Part shown: piece after piece, positions 24,258 through 25,810 of the stretch
Layout: each line of letters starts with the position of its first letter
Numbering within the stretch: the first letter of the stretch is position 1
Assembly: GCF_000426365.1 (NCBI RefSeq)
Contig: NZ_AUFF01000002.1
Coordinates: forward strand, 371,836 to 435,835
Length of the DNA stretch: 64,000 nt
Source: Arenimonas composti TR7-09 = DSM 18010
GTDB taxonomy: Bacteria; Pseudomonadota; Gammaproteobacteria; Xanthomonadales; Xanthomonadaceae
Direction: 5' to 3'
Made by a program: the position numbers and the translations under genes
Notes under the pieces: model-generated
What the model was told of the DNA's origin: nothing
What the model saw: only the letters and a program-made list of their open reading frames with translations
Databases searched by the model: none

Positions 24258-24974
24258 ATGCGTTTGCTGGCGATCGAAACCGCGACCGAAGCCTGCTCCG
24301 TAGCCGTGTACGTCGACGGCGATGTGCGCGAGCGGCACGAACTGGCGCCGCGCATGCACACGAAGCGGGTGCTGCCCTGGGCGGAGCAACTGCTCGCGGA
24401 GGCGGGCATCGGCAAATCGCAGCTCGACGCGATCGCCGTCGGCCGCGGCCCCGGCGCGTTCACCGGCGTCCGCCTCGCGATCGCGCTGGCGCAGGGGCTG
24501 GCGCTCGCCCTCGACCGCCCGGTGCTGCCCGTTTCCACCCTCGCCGTGCTGGCGATGCAGGGCCGCCGCGAGCACATCGTCGCCGCGATCGATGCGCGCA
24601 TGGGCGAGGTCTACCTCGGCGAATTCCAGCGCGGCCCCGATGGCCTCGTCACCGCCGCCGGCCCCGAGATCATCCTGTCCCCGAGCGAAGCCCCGCTGCC
24701 CGCAGCACCGTCGCACGGCATCGGCACCGGCTTCGCCGCCGCCGACGGCGCCCTGGTGATGCGCTTCGGCGACCGGCTGCACGCCGTCGATGCGACAGCA
24801 CTGCCACACGCCGCCGACCTCGCGAAACTCGCCGCGGCGGCCTACGCCCGCGGCGAAGCGATCCCGCCCGATGCCCTGGAGCCCGCGTACCTGCGCGACA
24901 ACGTCGCGCTCACGATCGCCGAGCAGCAGGCGCTGAAAGCGGGAAACGAGAAACGAGGAACGGGAAACGAGTGA
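24258..24974 (+). CDS. tsaB: tRNA t6A37 biosynthesis protein TsaB
   Basis: 238 residues. The ASKHA-type N-terminus (LLAIETATEACSVAVY), the conserved RMHTKRVLPW block and GRGPGAFTGVRLAIALAQGLA identify TsaB. TsaB forms a complex with TsaD and TsaE that attaches threonylcarbamoyl to A37 of tRNAs decoding ANN codons. Only one base separates it from the helicase stop, so it is probably in the same transcript. The last eleven residues (GNEKRGTGNE plus one) and the TGA stop come from one arm of the palindromic element at 24941-25146 and are not part of the conserved fold. Confidence 0.93.
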   Translation: MRLLAIETATEACSVAVYVDGDVRERHELAPRMHTKRVLPWAEQLLAEAGIGKSQLDAIAVGRGPGAFTGVRLAIALAQGLALALDRPVLPVSTLAVLAMQGRREHIVAAIDARMGEVYLGEFQRGPDGLVTAAGPEIILSPSEAPLPAAPSHGIGTGFAAADGALVMRFGDRLHAVDATALPHAADLAKLAAAAYARGEAIPPDALEPAYLRDNVALTIAEQQALKAGNEKRGTGNE

Positions 24975-25146
24975 AGCGCGCGCTGCGCGCGCGGGCTCTC
25001 GCTCTTCGAATGCCGCCGATGAATCCCGCAGAGACCAGCCATGATCGCCGCATCTCGCGTGATCAGATGCGGCATTCCGAAGGCGCGTTACCGGCGAGAG
25101 CCGCGAGCGCTTCACTCGTTTCTCGTTCCTCGTTTCTCGTTTCTCA
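24941..25146. repeat. Large imperfect palindrome joining two convergent genes
   Basis: Arms 24941-24980 and about 25108-25146 are near-identical inverted copies of an AACGAGAAACGAGG element followed by GAGTGAAGCGC. Inner segments (GGCTCTCGC ... GAATGCCGC) are also inverted, and a small hairpin (GCCGCATCT/AGATGCGGC) lies near the centre. The whole 206 bp looks like a non-autonomous mobile element (MITE-like). Each arm encodes the C-terminus and TGA stop of one flanking gene. Confidence 0.88.
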
Positions 25147-25810
25147 CCCGTGCCGCCTGCAACGCCACCAGCCGCGAGATGATCAGCGCGAGATAGAGCA
25201 CGCCGACCATCTGCTCGATCATCACCAGCGAGCGCGCGTGGTTGTTGACCGGCGTGATGTCGCCGAAGCCGACGCTGGTCAGCGCGGTGAAGCTGAAATA
25301 CAGCAGCTCGAACCAGCTCGTCAGCAGCACCGGATCGGTGTCGGAGGCCACCGCGAAGGAACCCGGCGAATAACGCTCGACCAGGGCATAGACATAGGCG
25401 AACACGAAGGCCATCAGCACGTAGCAGCCGGCCGCCGCGAACAGCTCGTCGAGGGTCATCACCTCGTCCCGCAGGATGTAGCGCAGCAGGCAGACGCAGA
25501 CGAAGGCATGGAACATCGCCTGCGTCGCGAAGTTCGCCTGCAGCCAGCCGGGGCCGGGCACGAAGGAGGCGACCACGTGCAACGCGATCGCCGGGATCGC
25601 CAGCAGGTAGCCGATGCGGTGCTCCGGTCCGGTCGCGCTCGCCGCGCGCAGCGCCAGCACCAGGATCAGCAGGTCCCAGATCGCGATCGCCGCGCGCCCT
25701 TCCGGACGCGGTTCGAGGAAGGGGTAGAGCAGGACCAGCGCCAGCAGCGACAGCAGCAGCCCGGCGTTCGGCAGCGCGGCGATCCGGCGCACCGTCTCCG
25801 GGCGGATCAT
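25112..25810 (-). CDS. Potassium-channel-like membrane protein
   Basis: 232 residues with about six hydrophobic helices. The last two flank a pore loop whose selectivity-filter sequence is TSVGFGD, a common bacterial variant of TVGYGD. No voltage-sensor arginines or RCK/cNMP domain are evident. It probably passes K+ across the inner membrane. Its ATG overlaps the mgtE stop by one base (TGATG), so translation is probably coupled to mgtE. The C-terminal RNEKRGTRNE is encoded by the palindromic element and matches the tail of TsaB almost exactly. Confidence 0.82.
   Translation of the reverse strand: MIRPETVRRIAALPNAGLLLSLLALVLLYPFLEPRPEGRAAIAIWDLLILVLALRAASATGPEHRIGYLLAIPAIALHVVASFVPGPGWLQANFATQAMFHAFVCVCLLRYILRDEVMTLDELFAAAGCYVLMAFVFAYVYALVERYSPGSFAVASDTDPVLLTSWFELLYFSFTALTSVGFGDITPVNNHARSLVMIEQMVGVLYLALIISRLVALQAARVRNEKRGTRNE

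Follow-up and report, generated by a model that had tools for sequence, protein, structure and literature searches.

In the genome of Arenimonas composti (3.16 Mb), two convergent genes code for proteins of different Pfam families that end in almost the same ten residues, followed by the same stop codon. By what process could two such genes have come to share one end? The junction lies in a stretch of 64,000 nucleotides, positions 371,836-435,835 of an A. composti contig, which is hereafter named the window and to which coordinates refer unless another locus is given.

Two convergent genes end in the arms of one palindrome

The + strand gene codes for a protein matching PF00814 (TsaD family), which we take to be TsaB, the name also given in the initial annotation. 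The gene facing it on the - strand codes for a channel protein (PF07885, Ion_trans_2). The junction is laid out as follows.

24258..24974, + strand: tsaB gene, ending in 10 codons and a TGA of repeat sequence
24926..25160, no strand: full imperfect palindrome, with outer GCAGGCG / CGCCTGC
24941..24968, + strand: left arm array, four heptamers GGGAAAC GAGAAAC GAGGAAC GGGAAAC
24969..24974, + strand: left inner edge GAGTGA, which codes for Glu and supplies the tsaB stop codon
24975..25111, no strand: element interior
24976..24991, no strand: small GC-rich palindrome GCGCGCGCTGCGCGCG, just inside the left array
25112..25117, - strand: right inner edge GAGTGA, which codes for Glu and supplies the channel gene stop codon
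25118..25145, - strand: right arm array, four heptamers GAGAAAC GAGAAAC GAGGAAC GAGAAAC
25112..25810, - strand: ion channel gene (Ion_trans_2), ending in 10 codons and a TGA of repeat sequence

TsaB ends in QALKA-GNEKRGTGNE-TGA and the channel protein in QAARV-RNEKRGTRNE-TGA. Coordinates and translation confirm what the initial annotation had proposed, namely that both near-identical 10-residue tails and both TGA codons are encoded by the arms of an imperfect palindrome. Of the extent it had given, 24941..25146, the start of the arrays at 24941 is correct and the end is one base too far, the last array base being 25145. The outer GCAGGCG / CGCCTGC motifs lie within the reading frames of both genes, upstream of the arrays.

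The inverted-repeat arms, 24926-24995 and 25091-25160, are 70 nt long, 80% complementary and 95 nt apart. Taken as single-stranded RNA, the region 24926-25160 has a predicted folding energy of -145.9 kcal/mol; 200 shuffled sequences averaged -94.4, which places it at z -11. A terminator scan gave one weak site, for 0.5 expected. The heptamer pair pattern, with at most 2 mismatches, occurs 6 times in the window, all 6 in the element, when 0.16 occurrences would be expected.

The arms belong to a dispersed repeat family

When compared with its own genome, the palindrome region gave 111 matches, at some 40 sites as grouped by hand; the middle of the element interior had no second match among the matches listed. 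A census of the repeat gave 257 matches (32 for the reversed control), at no fewer than 100 places. In the window and 60 fetched stretches, selected by similarity, our own scripts called at least 103 arrays, present in 59 of these 61 loci. That the palindrome is a single special insertion is not supported: its arms are members of a repeat family.

The arms follow a common plan. About four ordered heptamers of the form GAGNAAC, in type B often with GAGTGGA as the second unit, lead to GAGTGANGGC, which is the inner edge in the consensus, and in many cases a short GC hairpin comes after it. Two types were distinguished among the 103 arrays: 53 of type A, with GAGAAAC or GAGGAAC units, and 50 of type B, with GAGTAAC or GAGTGGA units. 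Their consensus sequences are given below, lower case marking weaker positions.

Type A: GAGaAAC GAGaAAC GAGGAAC GAGaAAC GAGTGa
Type B: GAGTAAC GAGTGGA GAGTAAC GAGTAAC GAGTGa

Many arrays are preceded by a weak outer edge resembling GAARGC. Unit order was marked in the first scan: counting outwards from the inside, GAGGAAC was second in 42 of 52 arrays and GAGAAAC third in 33 of 51. Four-unit arrays were the case for 30 of 52, the number of units ranging from 2 to 7 in that scan and reaching 9 or 10 elsewhere. Of the 103 arrays, 56 had a hairpin of at least 6 bp after the inner edge; the controls gave 212 of 2060 for random positions and 119 of 2060 for shuffles.

We found 63 clusters with clear neighbouring genes. 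Two arrays made up 39 of them, all in the facing +- arrangement and none in the -+ one. Terminal inverted repeats, one of the marks of a MITE, are present, yet the other 24 of the 63 clusters were single-armed by the detection rule used. Flanking genes were convergent in 27 cases, co-oriented in 33 and divergent in 3, one further cluster being ambiguous. Because convergent and divergent junctions are equally frequent on a circular chromosome, 27 against 3 is a strong bias (binomial p 8e-6). The left and right arms of one site were not more alike than arms taken across sites (19.6 versus 19.4 of 21 bases, 19 pairs, p 0.13). With likeness within sites not above that between sites, there is no sign of copying or compensation from arm to arm, nor any signal of co-evolution of the two arms.

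Stop codons are supplied by the arrays

Gene ends were assigned by codon-bias scoring rather than from annotation, and 70 of them faced an array. With a loose array boundary, the stop lay inside the array for 34 ends and 0-7 nt before it for 20, so that 54 of 70 were in the array or within 7 nt of it; 5 others were 8-30 nt before and 11 more than 30 nt. On a strict count, 25 of the 70 ends use a GAG-stop of the array: 16 GAGTAA, 8 GAGTGA and 1 GAGTAG. The last residue was Glu in 26 of the 34 in-array ends and in 0 of the 36 others, which is not independent proof, since the array letters dictate Glu. Among the 8 loosely in-array ends that lack a terminal Glu, some correspond to over-extended array starts.

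The two types differ in the frames that they close. Counted with a loosely extended array start, 27 of the 50 type B arrays closed all three frames, against 0 of the 53 of type A; type A arms have a single TGA, at the inner edge, and their sense frames are otherwise open. Four gene ends use this TGA, at +34 of a type A arm. Besides TsaB and the channel, these are Eda, a KDPG aldolase by Pfam whose predicted end is ...GNEKRGTGNE as in TsaB, and a long ORF at locus L200. Repeat-coded ends are therefore present in other genes too. The C-terminal part of the L200 ORF resembles, we presume, a Kdo transferase.

Seven and three have no common factor; whichever frame is read, a uniform heptamer array therefore yields one and the same cycle of residues. 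Since type A units are free of stops and the inner TGA is read in one frame, genes that enter and end in two type A arms share tail and stop. Both genes of the window enter their type A arms in the same frame, and by deduction from the arm sequence the identical tail and stop of TsaB and the channel would be a consequence of it.

Both stops lie in the arms, by the loose boundary, in 4 of 17 convergent pairs: tsaB-channel, L198, L201 and L043, the last being doubtful. At L198 (1985-2056), a gene that we take to be rsmB (protein end ...RVTRGE) and its convergent neighbour (...GKGE) both end inside the arms of a type B pair. This is a second double rewrite of facing gene ends.

The tails are absent in relatives

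We examined whether these ends are found outside A. composti. The closest TsaB in a named genome is that of Arenimonas daejeonensis (73% identity). A full TsaB was obtained from 22 of the 26 other congeners searched, and none of these 22 loci has the NEKRGT tail. Among 43 other TsaB loci, 41 are without the tail and two end before the gene does; the two sets overlap, as A. daejeonensis and one congener have the same junction. For the channel, 3 loci out of 3 are without it; these are the loci where the channel was in the fetched tsaB flank, in one case about 0.8 kb away, and two of them, whose junctions are identical, probably belong to the same species, which makes probably 2 species in all. 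The channel proteins of relatives end in LQARRRGGDA or MQARRRNGTPGQ. Conservation of NEKRGT in distant TsaB or channel proteins, which the initial annotation named as the finding that would refute its reading, was not observed (0/22 congeneric, 0/41 other TsaB, 0/3 channel loci).

The same holds for other proteins of the genome. Eda is without the tail in 13 of 13 loci of relatives, one being a distant paralogue. The L199 protein, presumably XerC, ends here in AHPRAKRK-RVTSGE; RVTSGE is absent from 26 of 26 congeneric loci, most of these proteins ending in AHPRA[RK]RK plus 0-9 residues. The presumed RsmB of L198 ends in FYYALLVK-RVTRGE, a tail absent from 23 of 23 congeneric loci. For the empty sites of these two genes, no ordered neighbour pair was matched in 5 XerC and 6 RsmB relatives. 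Judged from these loci, the C-terminal tails are new in this lineage.

The tsaB-channel pair was found side by side and free of the element in A. daejeonensis / G002 only; the genomes searched gave no closer site lacking it. In A. daejeonensis, 27 bp lie between the two stop codons, and this gap forms a small hairpin. This hairpin, GGAACGTCC-ATCC-GGACGTTCC (L048 / L095), abuts both stops, making a very compact two-way gene end. In A. composti, the old stops of both genes are lost, and the arms start about 5 residues past a conserved EQ in TsaB and 3 past LQA in the channel. An outer CAGGCG, 8 nt before the array, is common to TsaB, channel and Eda and might hint at a shared origin; CAGGC, however, is found in the A. 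daejeonensis channel gene already.

This comparison bears on the claim that one insertion changed both C-termini at once. Both proteins do carry a repeat tail, both arms are of type A and entered in the same frame, and both stops lie in the arms in 4 of 17 convergent pairs as counted above. A plain insertion between convergent genes leaves both old stops in its flanks, so that their loss needs replacement, two events or an ancestral overlap; with stops 27 bp apart, as in A. daejeonensis, a simple insertion cannot remove both. The absence of the tails in relatives does not refute the initial annotation. The 27-bp gap speaks against one simple insertion, and we regard a single event at the origin of both tails as rather unlikely. 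Both ends would instead have been replaced.

Distribution in other genomes is patchy

The type A pattern was found in 19 of 395 genomes of the family, from 13 of 54 genera, whereas the reversed control matched 2 of 395 genomes. The A. composti genome contains 55 matches, and three species that belong to a single other genus contain 36, 42 and 54. In many of the remaining genomes there are one to three matches, single ones being weak evidence given the control. A 27-base template (25 fixed positions) was present in 17 of 395 genomes of the family, from 7 of 54 genera, with no match for its reversed control. Neither type A pattern nor template was detected in any of the 26 congeners. In a class-wide sample, only the A. 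composti genome had the template (1 of 369), three other members of the family in this sample being without it. Such a patchy distribution suggests horizontal spread or repeated loss. A viral vehicle was rejected, with 0 exact template matches in viral contigs.

Loci from the other genera had 46 sense gene ends, of which 27 were in arrays or within 7 nt of them: 16 abutted the array, and the 11 in-array stops were all in its first 13 nt. Deep repeat-coded tails were therefore seen in the A. composti genome only. Two further observations were made in these searches. At G179:C22:43857, 43980 and 44103, three heptamer templates follow one another in the same orientation at a spacing of exactly 123 bp, which hints at a longer unit repeated in tandem. 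At L156, L160, L163 and L177, from other genera, GAGNAAC arrays are extended by GAGGAGT/GAGAAGT heptamer runs.

Origin of the element

Most likely, the two arms of the palindrome form one inverted pair belonging to a dispersed element that sits at gene ends in Lysobacteraceae, and that spread in the species and displaced gene ends. The element would consist, per arm, of the ordered array and its inner edge, often with a GC hairpin, two arms usually facing each other. In the course of its spread, it would, at several sites, have taken the place of the final codons and stop codon of a neighbouring gene, translation then entering the array and ending at an array GAG-stop. In type A, the inner TGA at +34 would offer a stop deep in the arm, hence the same tail and stop for both genes here. 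Facing arms and inner hairpins may act as a two-way transcription end. The family, its inverted pairing, its 3'-end placement, the repeat-coded C-termini and their absence in relatives are observed; we infer mobility from copies at unrelated loci together with absence in relatives. The agent that mobilised the element would lie outside what was found here.

A stronger version is that the element is a mobile gene-end cassette that targets stop-codon regions and carries a replacement end, is perhaps spread horizontally, is independent of frame in type B, and does little harm. The 7-bp period, coprime to the codon, would rotate stops through the frames, beside a two-way hairpin. Neither target duplication nor mobilising gene was identified, the gene search covering Y1 transposases and the element-free site being that of A. 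daejeonensis / G002. We put this version forward tentatively and hold it to be distinctly unlikely. If it were true, many C-termini (strictly 25 of 70 sampled ends) would have been rewritten with little harm.

That the element is a REP or BIME mobilised by a RAYT transposase, with the heptamers as a tail, appears very unlikely. GC hairpins do follow many inner edges, and REPs too occur at 3' ends, supplying stop codons, according to passages of Di Nocera et al. (2013, PMC3733652). GTAG REPs (GTAGGAGCGGCTTCAGCCGCGATC) were present at, or a few bases from, the inner edge in 6 cases (L010, L023, L028, L037, L043, L046), as if REPs inserted preferentially there. The arm, however, has no GTAG (or CGTC) head, and the heptamer pattern was near none of 5 Y1_Tnp genes (about 1.5 kb searched on each side). 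At one of these loci, L220 (G000:C2:479978-480241), the Y1 transposase gene is flanked left and right by GTAG REPs and is likely their RAYT. The repeats surrounding it are GTAGGAGCGGC, without heptamers. Given the 5 Y1 loci, a RAYT/REP origin is unsupported.

Local slippage of the polymerase, making heptamers at each gene end with the palindrome as an incidental outcome, is highly improbable. Unit numbers do vary from array to array, and heptamer repeats are abundant in bacteria, as stated in parts of Rehm et al. (2015, PMC4692102). Slippage alone, however, would yield uniform arrays and no inverted pairs, whereas the order of unit variants is common to different sites, and the template, with GAGTGGA as second unit, is exactly common to 7 genera; this shared order disfavours a local origin. 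That the arrays are G-quadruplex elements of the kind known from Xanthomonas (GGGAATC repeats) is scarcely credible and was rejected: unit length, about four units per array, inverted pairing and closeness to stop codons are as in passages of that study, but four GGG runs were found in 0 of 103 arrays, and any GGG run in 17.

Comparison with known systems

Under the preferred reading, of a dispersed element that displaces gene ends, one repeat family repeatedly rewrites the C-termini and stops of housekeeping proteins: TsaB, XerC, RsmB, Eda and a channel. Such elements offer a natural experiment on the tolerance of proteins to altered C-termini, and on gene ends that work both ways.

Three known systems come close, as described in passages of the respective articles. 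The Xanthomonas GGGAATC heptamers are mostly four per array and form 70-75 inverted pairs per genome; many are less than 50 bp from stops on the coding strand, few lie between divergent genes and some overlap stops, and oligonucleotides of these G-rich repeats were shown to form G-quadruplexes (Rehm et al. 2015, PMC4692102). The family described here resembles them by its 7-bp units, its preference for four and its inverted pairs near stops. Compared with these passages, it differs in having GAGNAAC units without G-tracts, ordered variants, a fixed GAGTGA inner edge, often a hairpin, and array-coded tails traced in named proteins. The heptamer, inverted-pair and gene-end architecture thus occurs without G-quadruplex capacity, and it may be this architecture, rather than G-quadruplexes, that matters.

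GTAG- and CGTC-tagged REPs are dispersed palindromes found between convergent or co-oriented genes, most of those between convergent genes being less than 20 bp from the 3' ends; GTAG REP ends often supply a TAG stop, and REPs sometimes encode residues at ORF ends (passages of Di Nocera et al. 2013, PMC3733652). Our elements are likewise dispersed palindromes at 3' ends that supply stops, but set against these descriptions their arms are without a GTAG or CGTC tag and have heptamer arrays instead, and no cognate RAYT was seen at 5 Y1 loci. The TAACTGA repeats of marine Beggiatoaceae are also heptamers giving stop codons, in all three frames, and some overlap gene ends (MacGregor 2015, PMC4679880, in part); unlike the present element, they lie for the most part upstream of start codons, are repeated in direct and not in inverted orientation, and have an unrelated sequence.

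Literature searches, including one with the repeat letters (of which part of the matches was considered, by title), gave no description of the GAGNAAC heptamer. The gene-end behaviour is already known from REPs and Xanthomonas heptamers; as far as these searches show, the sequence family and the double rewrite of facing gene ends are new.
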